Assembly (NCBI GenBank): GCA_002632355.1
Contig: NSJJ01000006.1
Coordinates: 1 to 64,000 of the forward strand
Source of the DNA: Sulfuricella denitrificans
GTDB taxonomy: Bacteria; Pseudomonadota; Gammaproteobacteria; Burkholderiales; Sulfuricellaceae
DNA: 64,000 nucleotides
Direction of reading: 5' to 3'
The position numbers were made by a program, and so were the translations under genes. Positions 93 through 9,501 of this stretch are shown in pieces; the first letter of the stretch is position 1, and each line of letters begins with the position of its first letter. A model generated the notes under the pieces. The model did no database searches, was not told where the DNA came from, and was given only the letters and a program-made list of their open reading frames with translations.

Positions 93-725
93 TCAACGGT
101 TGCCGATTACATATTGCACGTATTGCAGGACATACCAGCCGAAAGGCACATAAGGCACGTGCCAGGCAGCAAGCAAGCGGCGCATGACCGTCTTCGGGTG
201 CATGAAAGCGGCGATGCTGACCACGGCAGCAAGATCGCTCCTCTGCGATGCAGCGAGCATGGCTGCTGCCGCACCAACGGAATGCCCCACCACCCCGACC
301 CGCGCCGGATCAACCCCTGGCTGAGATTTGAGCCAGTTCAAAGCATGGTCAAGATCCTCCGCAAAACGCGGCATGGATGAGAAAGTATCCACATCGCTGC
401 GACCATGACTGCGAGCGTCGAAAAACAGCAGGGTATAGCCGGCACGGTGCAGGGGTCGGGCAAGGGGAAGCATCGTCCCGGCATTACCACCCCATCCATG
501 CAACACAGCCAGCGCCGGTGCATTTTCTGCTCCCGCGGCTGGAATCAACCATGCAAAGAGTTTCTTGCCGTTGGCAGTCAGGATTTCAATTTCCGAATAC
601 TGCAGATCCAACTCACCCGGGGTAGATTGTTCCACCACTTTCGGCGCTCGCAGGCTCCAGCGGATCAGAAAATTGAAAACCAGGATGACCAGGCCGCATG
701 TCACCAAAATCAGCAGAAAATTCAT
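93..725 (-). CDS. alpha/beta hydrolase, membrane-anchored, C-terminally truncated
   Basis: Serine hydrolase of the alpha/beta fold (COG1073-like). From the ATG at 725 the product has 210 residues; a TTG at 764 would add 13 but the ATG begins exactly at the hydrophobic anchor (residues 1-22). The oxyanion loop HGWGG lies near residues 76-80 and the nucleophile elbow GHSVG near 147-151 (Ser149). Family members usually run 270-320 residues, with the catalytic Asp and His in the last third. Here the frame stops just after that region should begin (VIGNR-stop), and the 90 bases beyond do not restore an obvious hydrolase tail. The protein may therefore be inactive or the gene may be decaying. Substrate unknown. 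Confidence 0.7.
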   Translation of the reverse strand: MNFLLILVTCGLVILVFNFLIRWSLRAPKVVEQSTPGELDLQYSEIEILTANGKKLFAWLIPAAGAENAPALAVLHGWGGNAGTMLPLARPLHRAGYTLLFFDARSHGRSDVDTFSSMPRFAEDLDHALNWLKSQPGVDPARVGVVGHSVGAAAAMLAASQRSDLAAVVSIAAFMHPKTVMRRLLAAWHVPYVPFGWYVLQYVQYVIGNR

Positions 726-828
726 CACAATGAAAATTTCATCCGGGACAAACACCAGCTTCAATTGTAGACCGGTGCTGAAACAGTTTCATTTTTCCTT
801 AAGTCGCTCAGTCATGGACAGTACAGGC

Positions 829-859
829 AAAAAAAAACCTGTGGCGCTGACGCCACAGG
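829..859 (-). terminator. Rho-independent terminator (leftward)
   Basis: Perfect 9-bp stem CCTGTGGCG/CGCCACAGG with a 4-nt loop (838-859), followed on the minus strand by nine Ts (837-829). It points leftward, yet no protein gene lies upstream of it on that strand for over 1.5 kb; the only transcript it can end is the proposed small RNA. Confidence 0.88.
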
Positions 860-933
860 AGAGACTGACGGTTGGGGTGTCCGCCAGGGAGGAGTTAACC
901 TGCACCGCATCATGCGTACTGGCTAATCAGCGA
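832..933 (-). ncRNA. candidate sigma-54-dependent small regulatory RNA, about 100 nt
   Basis: The interval is bounded on the minus strand by a good -24/-12 promoter (943-958) and a strong intrinsic terminator (829-859), giving a predicted transcript of about 100 nt. It has no ribosome-binding site and no plausible short ORF that stops before the terminator. It contains an unpaired-looking C-rich stretch CUCCUCCC (plus coordinates 887-894), complementary to Shine-Dalgarno sequences, and more C-rich segments at 874-878 and 859-866. Seen: promoter, terminator and motif. Inferred: that it is a base-pairing RNA controlled by the neighbouring activator. No known RNA family is recognised. Confidence 0.6.
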
Positions 934-942
934 TTACTACAA

Positions 943-958
943 AGCAATCCCCATGCCA
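943..958 (-). promoter_or_regulatory. sigma-54 (-24/-12) promoter
   Basis: On the minus strand TGGCAT-GGGGA-TTGCT: the invariant GG and GC are exactly 12 bp apart, as required for RpoN promoters, and match the consensus TGGCAC-N5-TTGCW except for one base. The start of transcription would be near 932-933, just upstream of the small RNA. The gene for a sigma-54 activator starts 140 bp away on the other strand. Confidence 0.72.
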
Positions 959-1030
959 CCTATCATACATCAAACAAACAGTGTCTTATATCAATAGGTT
1001 ATCAAATCATTAGAGAAAAACAAGACAAAA

Positions 1031-5008: not shown

Positions 5009-5779
5009 ATGTTCACCACCAATCCGTTCACCCCGCTCACCGTTTTTGTGTCTCCTGGCGCCATGCAGGGCTATATCGTTTTGATGGTGCTCGCGGTTGT
5101 CATTGGAACGCTATTCGATCTTTTTCATGAGAAAAAGCTCAAATTCTTCTTGCAAGACAGGCAACGCGCAAAGGCTGCGGCAAAGCGGCAACTCAATGCT
5201 GCTGCCATGGCCGCCATCGTATCCAGAACCATTGTGACCGACATTGCCACCTTCGGTGAATTCTGCAACAGGAGCCGCAGGATTTCACACGCGCTGATGT
5301 TTTATGGCTTCGTGCTCTACCTGGCTACAACCCTGACGATGATTTTCGTCTATCCGGACGATATGCGTGTGCCGGCAGCCTTTCCGCTTCTGTGGAACAT
5401 CGGTGTCCTGATGACGCTGTTCGGCGGTTACTGGTTTTTTTTCTTCCTCAGGGTGAACGTCGTTCACGATGGCCACCCAGCCTGGCGTCTGGTGCGCGCC
5501 GATCTGTTCATCGTTACGCTCCTCGCCAGCTTGACGTTCGCACTCCTGTTTGAATTGGCGGCAATACTGGAAAACACGGCTGCGACCATGGTGTTCGCCA
5601 GCCTCTATATCTTTTTCACGACGCTGCTGTGCATTTCCGTTCCATGGTCCAAGTTCGCCCACATGTTTTACAAGCCCATAGCTGCCTTTCAGCGAAGAGT
5701 GGAGGAAGCCGACGGTTCGTCCGACCTGCCAGCGCCGACAACGGAAGGAGACAGGCGATGCCCACTTTCACATACATGA
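5009..5779 (+). CDS. aprM: APS reductase-associated membrane anchor AprM
   Basis: Integral membrane protein thought to link adenylylsulfate (APS) reductase to the quinone pool in sulfur oxidisers that lack the Qmo complex. From the ATG at 5009, preceded by GGGAGG at a good distance, it has 256 residues and about five hydrophobic segments (21-38, 93-114, 124-147, 165-186, 193-211). It resembles NarI/DsrM-type cytochrome b subunits. His94 at the start of the second segment and His218 after the last are possible haem ligands. The identity rests mainly on its position as first gene of an aprMBA operon; its stop overlaps the aprB start by 22 bp, implying coupled translation. Confidence 0.85.
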   Translation: MFTTNPFTPLTVFVSPGAMQGYIVLMVLAVVIGTLFDLFHEKKLKFFLQDRQRAKAAAKRQLNAAAMAAIVSRTIVTDIATFGEFCNRSRRISHALMFYGFVLYLATTLTMIFVYPDDMRVPAAFPLLWNIGVLMTLFGGYWFFFFLRVNVVHDGHPAWRLVRADLFIVTLLASLTFALLFELAAILENTAATMVFASLYIFFTTLLCISVPWSKFAHMFYKPIAAFQRRVEEADGSSDLPAPTTEGDRRCPLSHT

Positions 5780-6213
5780 CACGCTGCGACGGCTGCGGCG
5801 AGTGCGTGGATATCTGCCCTTCGGACATCATGCACATCGACCCGGTTTATCGCAGATCCTACAACATCGAACCCAATTTCTGCTGGGAATGCTACTCGTG
5901 CGTGAAGGCTTGCCCGCAGCATGCGATAGACGTCAGGGGTTATGCGGACTTCGCGCCGCTGGGACATAGCGTCAGGGTGCTCAGGGAAGAGGCAAGCGGC
6001 ACTATCTCATGGAAGATCAGATACCGTGACGGGCGGGAGAAGGCGTTCAGCTTTCCGATCCGGACCACGCCATGGGGTTCCATCAAGCCGCCAACCGAGT
6101 ACGAAGCGCCTGATGCAGATGCCCTGAATTCCCCGCTGCTCGCGCACGAACCTACGGCACTCATGGTGGCGGCGTTGCCTACTTTGTTACCTTTCGAGAC
6201 AAAACAGGAGTAA
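5758..6213 (+). CDS. aprB: adenylylsulfate (APS) reductase beta subunit
   Basis: Iron-sulfur subunit of dissimilatory APS reductase, which in sulfur oxidisers works in reverse, making APS from sulfite and AMP. It carries electrons between the FAD of AprA and the membrane partner. 151 residues, typical for AprB. Two [4Fe-4S] motifs lie in the first third: Cys10, 13, 16, 20 (CDGCGECVDICP) and Cys42, 45, 48, 52 (CWECYSCVKACP). The start ATG is preceded by GGAAGGAG and lies inside the end of aprM; aprA begins 4 bp after the stop. Confidence 0.96.
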   Translation: MPTFTYMTRCDGCGECVDICPSDIMHIDPVYRRSYNIEPNFCWECYSCVKACPQHAIDVRGYADFAPLGHSVRVLREEASGTISWKIRYRDGREKAFSFPIRTTPWGSIKPPTEYEAPDADALNSPLLAHEPTALMVAALPTLLPFETKQE

Positions 6214-6217
6214 TGCC

Positions 6218-8062
6218 ATGGGTCTGTTCTCATCCAGAAAAACCCGCTTCGTCGATACCGACATTCTCGTCATCGGTGGCGGCTTCGGCGGCTGCGGCGC
6301 GACTTATGAGTCCAGATACTGGGGACGCAATCTCAAGGTCACTCTGGTCGAAAAGGCCAACATCGAGCGCAGCGGGGCCGTTGCCCACGGTCTGTCGGCG
6401 ATCAATTGCTACATGGGCATGCGCTGGGGCGAGAACCAGCCGGAAGACTTTGTCCGCTACGCCCGCGACGACCTGATGGGCCTGGTAAGGGAAGACCTGG
6501 TCTTCGACATTGCCCGGCATGTCGACGCCACGGTCCACATGTTCGAGGAATGGGGCCTTCCGATCATGAAAGACCCTGAGACCGGCCGCTATCTGAGAGA
6601 AGGAAGGTGGCAGGTCATGATCCACGGCGAGAGTTACAAGCCGATTATCGCCGAAGCGGCCAGAAAGGCTGCCAGCGAAGTGCACAACCGGATCATGGTG
6701 ACCCATCTGCTGATGGATCAGACACATCCCAACCGAATCGCCGGCGCTGTCGGGTTCAACGTCCGGGATGGAAGTTTCCTTGTCTTCAGGGCGAAAGCGG
6801 TCATCGTCGCGGCTGGCGGCGCATCGCACATTTTCAAGCCGCGATCGGCGGGTGAAGGCGCGGGCAGGACCTGGTATGCACCATGGAGCAGTGCCTCGGC
6901 CTATGGCCTGGTCCTGCGCGCTGGCGCCAGAATGGTCCAGATGGAAAACCGGGTCGTGCTTGCCCGCTTCAAGGATGGCTACGGCCCGGTCGGTGCCTGG
7001 TTCCTGCTGCTCGGGGCGACCGACACCAATGCCAATGGCGACAACTACATCGCCGCCCGTTTCGAGGAAATGAAATCCATGGTCGGCAAATATGCCGAAA
7101 CCAGGCCCATGCCGACCTGTCTGCGAAACCATGCCATGCTGCAGGAGCTCAAGGACGGCAAGGGTCCCATCTACATGCATACCCAGCCGGTGCTCGACAC
7201 CAAAGAAAAGGAGGCGATCGGCTGGGAGGATTTTCTCGACATGACGGTCGGCCAGGCGGTGGTCTGGGCTTCACAGAACATCGACCCCAGGGAGAAGCCA
7301 TCCGAGCTTATTACCTCCGAGCCCTACATCATGGGTTCTCACGCCACCTGCTCCGGCGCATGGGCCAGCGGGCCGGAAGATTGTGCCCCTGCGGACTATC
7401 AGTGGGGATACAACAGGATGACGACGGTCGAAGGGCTGTTCGGCGCTGGCGACACCATAGGCGGTTCCGCCCACAAGTTTTCCTCCGGCTCCTTCACCGA
7501 GGGCAGGATCGCGGGCAAGGCGGCGGTCAGGTATGTCATGGCCATGGCCGGAAAAACGCCACAGGTGGACGAAACACAGATCAGCGTGCTCCGTGAAGAA
7601 ATCTTCAGGCCGCTGGAAAACCATGAAACTGGCAGGAACGAGATAGTCGCCGGGAGCGTGGCTCCGGGCTACATCTCGCCTCTTCAGGGCCTTCAGAGGC
7701 TGGAAAAGATCATGGATGAGTACGGTGGCGGCATCAGTACCTTATATGTCACCAGCGAACCGATGCTCAATCGCGGACTGGAACTACTTGGCATGCTGAA
7801 GGAGGATCTCGCCCATATCGGCGCCGAGGATTTGCACCAGCTGCAGAGAGCCTGGGAACTCAATCACCGGGTCTGGACCTCGGAGGCCGTGCTCAGGCAC
7901 ACGCTATTCAGGCAGGAAACCCGCTGGCCGGGGTACTACTACCGCGGCGACTATCCAAAGTTGAACGATGCCGACTGGCATGCCTTCACCGCTTCCCAAT
8001 ATGACGTCAGGACTGGTGAATGGCAAATGAGCAAGCTCCCCGTACATCACATCATCGCGTGA
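6218..8062 (+). CDS. aprA: adenylylsulfate (APS) reductase alpha subunit
   Basis: Catalytic flavoprotein of APS reductase, 614 residues, a member of the fumarate reductase/succinate dehydrogenase flavoprotein family. The dinucleotide-binding motif VIGGGFGGCG lies near residues 13-22 and binds FAD; the conserved AprA segments around RSGAVAHGLSAINCYMG, GSHATCSGAWASG and GGSAHKFSSGSFTEGR are present. In the oxidative direction it joins sulfite to AMP, and ATP sulfurylase or APAT (not in this window) then yields ATP or ADP. The ribosome-binding site AGGAG is 7 bp before the ATG. The gene closes the aprMBA operon; no intrinsic terminator is evident in the 36 bp before the convergent rhodanese gene. 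Confidence 0.97.
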   Translation: MGLFSSRKTRFVDTDILVIGGGFGGCGATYESRYWGRNLKVTLVEKANIERSGAVAHGLSAINCYMGMRWGENQPEDFVRYARDDLMGLVREDLVFDIARHVDATVHMFEEWGLPIMKDPETGRYLREGRWQVMIHGESYKPIIAEAARKAASEVHNRIMVTHLLMDQTHPNRIAGAVGFNVRDGSFLVFRAKAVIVAAGGASHIFKPRSAGEGAGRTWYAPWSSASAYGLVLRAGARMVQMENRVVLARFKDGYGPVGAWFLLLGATDTNANGDNYIAARFEEMKSMVGKYAETRPMPTCLRNHAMLQELKDGKGPIYMHTQPVLDTKEKEAIGWEDFLDMTVGQAVVWASQNIDPREKPSELITSEPYIMGSHATCSGAWASGPEDCAPADYQWGYNRMTTVEGLFGAGDTIGGSAHKFSSGSFTEGRIAGKAAVRYVMAMAGKTPQVDETQISVLREEIFRPLENHETGRNEIVAGSVAPGYISPLQGLQRLEKIMDEYGGGISTLYVTSEPMLNRGLELLGMLKEDLAHIGAEDLHQLQRAWELNHRVWTSEAVLRHTLFRQETRWPGYYYRGDYPKLNDADWHAFTASQYDVRTGEWQMSKLPVHHIIA

Positions 8063-8098: not shown

Positions 8099-9307
8099 TC
8101 ATTTCTTGCCGTGTGACAGGGCGCACTGGTTCCGGCCGAGTTCCAGTTCGCTGGCTTTCACTTCATTCACCTCGATCAGGCCAGTGTTTACCCGCCGGAT
8201 TTCATCGTAGGACGGCGGATGCTCCGGCAGGTTGCTCAGGATATATGCGCTGAATACAGCCAGCCCCTGGCCTAACATGCGCAAACCTTCATTGTGGCTA
8301 CGCAGAGCACCGATGCTGGCACGATAGCAGCCCTGGGCGTCGGCTTCGCGCATTTGGCTGAAGTGGGCCGGAAGCACGACTGCAGCGTCAGGCAAGGTCA
8401 GAAGCCGTTGCAGCGAGCGATAAAGCAGGGGTGCCCAGCTCTCCGCCCGACCGCCCAGATCGGGACGACCGACCGTGTCGATGAACAGGGTATCGCTGGT
8501 CAGCAGATAACGCCCATCCACCAGCGGATTGACCATGCCAAGAGTATGACCGGGAAGATGAAGTGCGCGAAGGTTCACCTCGCCCAGCTTCAGTTCCATT
8601 TCATCCTCCAGATAACGGAAGGAAAAAGTCGCGGGCAGCAAGTCGTCTGGGTGAATGCTGTCATAGGGATGGAGCCAGTAATCCGCCCCCAGTTCCCTTG
8701 CCAGGGCCACTCCACCGCTGAGATGGTCGGCCTGGAGGTGGGTGTCAAATACATTCGTGATATGCCAACCGTGCTCGCTGGCAATCCGGGTATAGACCTC
8801 GGTGTGGCGCGCGGCGTCAACTACCATGGCCTCATCCCCGCTGGCCAGCAAATAACTGAGGCAGCCCCGCGCCGGACGGCTGATCTGGAGAACGGTGAGC
8901 CGGCGGCTTTCCTCCACGACCCGCATTTCGTAATGGTTGCCCCAGGCCGCCATCCCGCCTTCCAGATTAAGTGCCTGATAGCCGAGCCGACGCAGGCCTT
9001 CGGCGACATGGGCAGAGGTGTCGCCCTTGGCGCACACCGCCAGAATAAGCCCGCTCCGGGGTAATTTATCTCCTAGCCGGTCAGGAACTGCGCGTGCAAC
9101 CGCTGCGGCGATTTCTTCGTCTTCTTCCTCCAGTTCCAGGAGATCGAAGTAGGGCAAGTTGATTGTCTGGATCGCATCCCTGCCCTCGATTTTCCAGGCA
9201 TTGAAGTCCTCCTCGTTTCGCACATCCAGGATGAAGAACTGACTGCCCTCATTCAGGTGACGGTACAGTTCCGATGGACTCCAAACAGGAGTCTTGAGCA
9301 TAACCAT
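8099..9307 (-). CDS. rhodanese / metallo-beta-lactamase (persulfide dioxygenase-like) fusion
   Basis: 402 residues in two parts. The N-terminal rhodanese domain (about 8-130) has the active cysteine Cys92 in the loop VCAKGD and could carry a persulfide. The second part (about 135-360) is a metallo-beta-lactamase fold of the ETHE1/persulfide dioxygenase type: THLQADH (189-195), His254 (HLPGHTLG), Asp272 (SDTLF) and His315 (LPAHF). The second His of the usual HxHxDH motif is Gln192. ETHE1 enzymes bind a single iron through the first His, the later His and the Asp, all present here, so activity is still possible. Beside apr, a role in oxidising sulfane sulfur to sulfite is likely. The ATG follows GGAGG by 5 nt. 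The 194 bp beyond it hold only upstream signals. Confidence 0.82.
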   Translation of the reverse strand: MVMLKTPVWSPSELYRHLNEGSQFFILDVRNEEDFNAWKIEGRDAIQTINLPYFDLLELEEEDEEIAAAVARAVPDRLGDKLPRSGLILAVCAKGDTSAHVAEGLRRLGYQALNLEGGMAAWGNHYEMRVVEESRRLTVLQISRPARGCLSYLLASGDEAMVVDAARHTEVYTRIASEHGWHITNVFDTHLQADHLSGGVALARELGADYWLHPYDSIHPDDLLPATFSFRYLEDEMELKLGEVNLRALHLPGHTLGMVNPLVDGRYLLTSDTLFIDTVGRPDLGGRAESWAPLLYRSLQRLLTLPDAAVVLPAHFSQMREADAQGCYRASIGALRSHNEGLRMLGQGLAVFSAYILSNLPEHPPSYDEIRRVNTGLIEVNEVKASELELGRNQCALSHGKK

Positions 9308-9501
9308 ATCATCCTCCTTTCATGAAAGAGAAACGTTCCCACCATAGAAGCTTGTTAAGACAGCAAGTACGCCTTTCCTGCATACTGCGTCCAGCAATCA
9401 CCAGCCAGTGCCAGACAAATATCAGGTATTGATGCAGATGAATCTGGGGTTGTTATCCATGGGAATCAAGAAGCCGTGCCCGGTTTATACAATACGGCAC
9501 A

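Follow-up and report, generated by a model that had tools for sequence, protein, structure and literature searches.

Small RNAs (sRNAs) made from sigma-54 promoters under the control of an enhancer-binding protein (EBP) are known from the Qrr RNAs of Vibrio, which are activated by LuxO, and from GlmY, which is activated by GlrR; some of them lie next to the EBP gene, and some occur in several copies per genome. The alpha-r14 or cuckoo RNAs (NfeR1 of Sinorhizobium and CcsR1 to CcsR4 of Rhodobacter) are described as having a sigma-70 promoter and three hairpins, with CCUCCUCCC in every hairpin (PMC10746234). In Betaproteobacteria, the CU-rich RNAs bdhR1 and ncS27 (Rfam family RF02278) set a precedent for blocking of ribosome-binding sites (PMC5688073), and pairing of the RNA S17 with a ribosome-binding site has been demonstrated (PMC11722255); for each of these RNAs, this mode of action has been either tested or proposed. 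The C-rich loops of sX13 of Xanthomonas act on G-rich mRNA motifs (PMC3771888).

Sulfane sulfur is sensed in Cupriavidus pinatubonensis by the EBP FisR, in which it causes formation of a Cys53-Cys64 tetrasulfide (PMC9495516). The tetrasulfide switches on the ATPase of FisR and sigma-54 transcription of sulfide oxidation genes (PMC12170894, PMC9495516). FisR of Acinetobacter baumannii lacks the conserved cysteines yet still responds to sulfide (PMC7315123); the cysteine rule therefore does not hold for every FisR. In the openly available literature that was searched, no description was found of an sRNA under FisR or another sensor of polysulfide, persulfide, or sulfane sulfur.

The locus described here lies in the window (the whole 64,000-nucleotide stretch of DNA that was analyzed) and pairs a candidate sRNA of ~105 nt on the minus strand (about 933 to 829) with a divergent plus-strand gene for a FisR-like sigma-54 EBP (1099 to 2418). 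The sigma-54 promoter and the FisR-like sulfur-sensing regulator are the most informative features of the locus. The promoter, TGGCATGGGGATTGCT (943 to 958, minus strand), is a near-consensus -24/-12 element; such an element, with the correct GG-N10-GC spacing, was present in 20/20 EBP-linked loci. The predicted start preceded CUCCC by 38 to 42 nt in most of these loci, by 35 nt in three, and by 21 nt in two. Two dyads, neither of which has a strand, lie farther upstream: GTCATATATGGC (1049 to 1060), which precedes the -24 element by 91 bp, is a probable first activator site, and GCCATACATGGC (1081 to 1092) is a probable second one. The dyad pattern GYCRN4TGRC was found in 19 of the 20 EBP-linked loci, window counted, while dinucleotide shuffles gave a mean of 0.38, a contrast that is inflated because the pattern was derived from the same loci. 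Its constant position was no part of that derivation: in most loci, 88 to 91 bp separate the dyad from the -24 element downstream of it (one locus has 123 bp), and several loci have a second copy at 110 to 123 bp.

The EBP has PAS, AAA+, and Fis-type helix-turn-helix domains by Pfam, and GAFTGA is intact in its translation. With a -24/-12 promoter, an upstream dyad, and a GAFTGA EBP, the predicted arrangement resembles that of the Qrr RNAs; the EBP, however, is of another class than those of Qrr and GlmY (a PAS domain with cysteines and no receiver domain), the RNA is unrelated, and the signal is likely sulfur. The RNA-adjacent EBPs form one clade with support of 100/100. Three cysteines of the PAS domain (Cys52, Cys63, and Cys70) are invariant in 40 homologues, and the homologue from Cupriavidus metallidurans, at 52% identity, has them too. 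The spacing of Cys52 and Cys63, 11 residues, equals that of Cys53 and Cys64 in FisR (reference positions from PMC9495516). More distant EBP relatives, at 52 to 56% identity, face genes whose products, as judged from their translations, are persulfide dioxygenase-like (L045 and L046), SQR-like (L041), and cydA-like (L037); others face genes for NifX-like proteins or a molybdopterin oxidoreductase, and a sigma-54 element accompanies each of these operons at a comparable distance. The divergent EBP is thus probably a polysulfide-sensing activator, a reading that draws on sequence comparison. The FisR regulons of Cupriavidus and Acinetobacter share with this locus the EBP family and a divergent sigma-54 promoter and, in Cupriavidus, the cysteine spacing, but their described outputs are sulfide oxidation operons whereas the predicted output here is an RNA.

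The predicted 5' end of the RNA is at ~933, 12 nt past the -12 GC, and its 3' end lies in the T-run at 837 to 829. The intrinsic terminator (859 to 829, minus strand; CCTGTGGCG-TCAG-CGCCACAGG-T9) consists of a hairpin of nine pairs, seven of them GC, and a T9 tail, with compensatory changes in five pairs. Hairpin 2, CUGGCGG-loop-CCGUCAG (865 to 887), is indicated by pair counts and compensatory changes, and its loop (880 to 872) carries CCCC, a second anti-Shine-Dalgarno (anti-SD)-like segment with an unpaired probability of 0.99. The 5' hairpin (892 to 928) comes from the minimum free energy fold, in which its last pairs can take in 893 to 892; it is poorly alignable, and its sequence differs among homologues. 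For hairpin 2 and the terminator together, seven pairs showed two-sided changes (shuffle mean 2.0, with 0/500 shuffles as high). Paired cells amounted to 92%, compared to 26 to 43% in slid controls, percentages that favor this structure because the alignment was fitted to it. RNAalifold on MAFFT alignments did not include hairpin 2, owing to a one-base offset; the hairpin was recovered with the given structure and covariance model. These results support a genuine RNA that is structured and conserved, in which one anti-SD segment is accessible and a loop holds another C-rich element.

The earlier note, which mentions neither the sigma-54 promoter nor the FisR-like regulator, had placed an anti-SD octamer in an apparently unpaired region flanked by a 5' stem and the terminator of a candidate RNA. 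The plus strand at 887 to 894 reads GGGAGGAG, and the minus strand therefore reads CTCCTCCC, so that the octamer, CUCCUCCC, is indeed present on the minus strand, within the conserved ~105-nt RNA with its strong terminator. By prediction, the proposed single-strandedness held for seven of its eight bases: the first seven (894 to 888) had a mean unpaired probability of 0.80 in the window, while C887, at 0.03, forms the first pair of hairpin 2 (887 to 865), and this hairpin separates the motif from the terminator. The C-G pair opening hairpin 2 is kept in 21/21 aligned loci. The equivalent seven bases averaged 0.72 unpaired across 19 members, and the C-rich loop averaged 0.92 in the 14 members having one. 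As for the other C-rich segments listed in the note, 874 to 878 belongs to the loop of hairpin 2, and 859 to 866 is mainly the linker ahead of the terminator.

The octamer is not overrepresented in the genome (47 copies versus 49 for the reversed control pattern); what gives it weight is its position within a conserved RNA. It is present in exact form in 5 of the 21 aligned loci, including 4/4 RNA-bearing loci of the window's own genus, and CUCCUCUC occurs in five more. The remaining members have UCCUCCC, ACCUCCC, ACUCCC, or UCUCCC, and one (L019) has CACCC. The loop of hairpin 2 carries CUCCC in 11 members and a CCCC-type sequence in 5, and 5/21 lack a C-rich loop. Pairing of the motif or its absence from homologues had been named as grounds for rejecting it; what was found goes half that way, since the motif is mostly unpaired and the exact octamer is confined to 5/21 loci, yet the C/U-rich stretch is kept more widely. 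The octamer varies, while the C/U-rich stretch preceding hairpin 2 persists, as does, in most members, the C-rich loop; by this comparison, the selected feature looks like a C/U-rich, anti-SD-like surface at two places, not a single invariant octamer.

When 100 related genomes were searched at the DNA level, the stretch turned up in three congeneric species and in a single genome from a different family within the order. A search with the regulator, followed by examination of upstream regions, gave 19 further loci with the RNA opposite a homologous EBP. In all, the RNA is present in 20 loci besides that in the window, in Sulfuricellaceae and Gallionellaceae; the records carrying it include those labeled Sulfurimicrobium, Sulfuricella, Sideroxydans, Sideroxyarcus, Gallionella, and other Nitrosomonadales. 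A covariance model built on the 78-nt core (R1) scored 64.7 bits in the window and 71 to 95 bits in other members, except for L019 (only 32.3 bits), which nevertheless has the promoter and the EBP. Across 399 sampled genomes of the order, no nonmember scored above 35.6 bits. Weak R1 matches in other families (35.6 bits or less) were rejected as members, as a pattern scan showed no sigma-54 promoter at them. Of 120 Gallionellaceae genomes, 15 encode an EBP with 73% identity or more, and the RNA lies next to it in all 15; three more genomes of this family carry the RNA but gave no such EBP match.

The reading that we favor, and hold to be somewhat more probable than all others taken together, is that the RNA is an independent, trans-acting, sulfane-sulfur-responsive, sigma-54-driven anti-SD sRNA. 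A rise in sulfane sulfur (polysulfide or persulfide) would switch on the FisR-like activator through the cysteines of its PAS domain, a step proposed because of the homology to FisR. The activator would bind the predicted dyad sites ~90 bp upstream, and sigma-54 RNA polymerase would then fire at TGGCAT-N5-TTGCT to give the ~105-nt RNA, as the promoter and dyads imply. The unpaired CUCCUCC and the C-rich loop may pair with G-rich ribosome-binding sites and thereby lower translation, a step that follows the logic of the sequence and the cases of S17 and bdhR1/ncS27. Hfq, which is encoded in the genome, would probably help at the U-rich 3' tail, which has nine U. The arrangement suggests that sulfur status could be passed on to mRNA control via an RNA. 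A broader version, in which a polysulfide-sensing sigma-54 activator and its anti-SD sRNA (in two copies in some genomes) make up the RNA arm of a sulfane-sulfur response and dampen a set of mRNAs at the level of translation in sulfur- and iron-oxidizing bacteria, is put forward tentatively, at slightly less than even confidence.

If the sigma-54 transcript instead served chiefly as the 5' portion of the operon behind it, with the terminator limiting readthrough, the RNA would be a cis leader. The gene downstream of it in the window, in the same orientation, encodes an alpha/beta hydrolase (93 to 764, minus strand) and is a possible readthrough gene; in Gallionellaceae, the corresponding operon comprises ferredoxin, CcoG, and NifX-like genes. 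Downstream genes are codirectional in many loci, so some readthrough is likely, and relatives of the EBP have a sigma-54 promoter directly before operons, both of which agree with a leader. However, the strong terminator is preserved by compensatory changes, no alternative antiterminator fold came to light, and the downstream genes differ between Sulfuricellaceae and Gallionellaceae. In addition, two Gallionellaceae genomes have a second RNA copy elsewhere (L141 and L172), away from the EBP and with no such operon directly behind it. L141 is flanked by rplQ and a D-Ala-D-Ala carboxypeptidase-like gene and has a degenerate -24 element (TAGCAC), while L172 lies beside a tRNA-like sequence and has an intact promoter. 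ATGGC-type repeats lie upstream of both, and L183 to L185 likewise keep promoter and repeats. Orphan copies with promoter and repeats point to a self-contained unit rather than just an operon leader. We therefore regard a cis leader as unlikely, at somewhat under one chance in five.

Relationships of the favored trans-acting sRNA to described RNA families were also assessed. Across the RNA, Rfam searches at the gathering threshold and at an E value of ≤10 gave only a weak match to anti-hemB and chance-level matches. The octamer had been likened in the earlier note to that of the alpha-r14 RNAs, which are likewise small RNAs with an anti-SD element of the CUCCUCCC type left unpaired. As a sign of kinship, the likeness failed: no alpha-r14 match was found in Rfam at gathering or at an E value of ≤10, and both promoter and architecture differ. 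In place of three hairpins with CCUCCUCCC, the window RNA, which is betaproteobacterial, has one unpaired CUCCUCCC outside the loop and one C-rich loop holding CCCC, and the octamer is not ultraconserved in its family. It has a sigma-54 promoter; the only sigma-70-like match to the alpha-r14 promoter pattern CTTAGAC-N17-CTATAT lies downstream of the RNA. Membership in alpha-r14/cuckoo was accordingly rejected. The best Rfam match, Burkholderia anti-hemB RNA (RF02837), was weak (18.2 bits against a cutoff of 49.5); CUCCUCCCUG and the terminator are in common, but the first hairpin of RF02837, with the motif in its loop, is absent from the window RNA. The RNA also differs from sX13, in which C-rich motifs lie in the loops of three stem-loops and action is Hfq independent; no sigma-54 control of sX13 was noted in that source (PMC3771888).

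RF02278 and Bordetella S17 have a like plan, and the RNA could be a diverged double-hairpin RNA of this betaproteobacterial kind, also called toxic small RNAs, that was brought under sigma-54. The window RNA shows the common plan, with a CU-rich unpaired stretch, a short hairpin with a C-rich (in RF02278, CU-rich) loop, and a terminator. Nevertheless, RF02278 gave no match at the window RNA at an E value of ≤0.001 genome-wide and none in an E-value scan of the region, whereas other loci of the genome match it below the cutoff, and membership by Rfam was rejected. S17 further differs in being made from a sigma-A promoter with RNase E processing, while the window RNA has a sigma-54 promoter and a dedicated activator. 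Descent from the double-hairpin RNAs is thus improbable, at about one chance in ten. The best reading is that the RNA works like the cuckoo and double-hairpin RNAs yet belongs to neither family. The genome's best RF02278 copy is a separate locus (L121; G000:C4:215192-215259), which scored 46.3 bits, just under the cutoff, and has UCUCCUCC ahead of its hairpin.

CrcZ and CsrB carry repeated protein-binding motifs. The RNA might similarly titrate Hfq, ProQ, or a protein like CsrA, or act by another route, with the anti-SD look incidental to a C-rich binding site; in favor of this, its unpaired C/U-rich segments vary in exact sequence, and hairpin 2 contains GGA in many members. We give this slightly less credence than the double-hairpin origin, as the window RNA has no repeated motif of that kind and most members have a single GGA in hairpin 2. 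That there is no functional RNA at all, merely a terminator with C-rich surroundings, agrees with the chance-level frequency of the octamer in the genome but is very improbable given the conserved promoter, spacing, and two hairpins, the orphan copies, and the co-occurrence with the EBP.

Candidate targets of the anti-SD sRNA were sought in the genome. GGGAGGAG lies near an ATG at ten sites, of which only that at narK precedes a long open frame; narK was rejected as a conserved target because the SD sequence differs in the G001 orthologue. A search for extended complementarity added five sites, and no convincing start codon lay at any of them. The EBP's own mRNA was rejected as a feedback target because no SD-like GGAGG precedes its start (1099). 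The lack of a convincingly conserved target among these candidates counts against the favored reading, as do the variable octamer and the five members without a C-rich loop.

If the proposed pathway is true, reactive sulfur signaling would extend to the level of translation. It would also provide a clean genetic handle in lithotrophs such as Sulfurimicrobium, Sideroxydans, and Gallionella (one activator, one promoter, and one RNA, with two copies in some genomes), and would add a further case of anti-SD RNAs that apparently arose separately across lineages.

Several other features of the window and of related genomes were recorded. The genes aprB and aprA (5758 to 8062, plus strand) encode adenylylsulfate reductase, with NCBIfam matches above cutoff; the organism thus has genes of dissimilatory sulfur oxidation, which lie near the RNA and fit the favored reading. 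A rhodanese-like protein with a metallo-beta-lactamase fold, possibly persulfide dioxygenase-like, is encoded at 8102 to 9319 (minus strand) and has only weak NCBIfam matches. A FisR-like paralogue with 58% identity (L160; G000:C19:192091-193389) is divergent to a molybdopterin oxidoreductase gene, with hydrogenase-like genes behind. A conserved, apparently membrane-anchored protein of ~150 residues adjoins sRNA-linked or other FisR-like loci (L014 at 562 to 1014, minus strand, and also L018, L035, and L043); its L014 copy had no Pfam match, and it is a candidate for an unknown sulfur gene. Another possible anti-SD RNA was seen in L132 (~1480 to 1590), where GGCCUCUCCUCCCGGUC precedes a terminator in the probable 3' untranslated region of an amtB-like gene and scored 30.9 bits with R1. 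Finally, a repeated element with CCTCCCCTTGTCAGGGGAGGAG lies upstream of short open frames at two loci (L154 and L156; G000:C31:48341 and G000:C33:110913).
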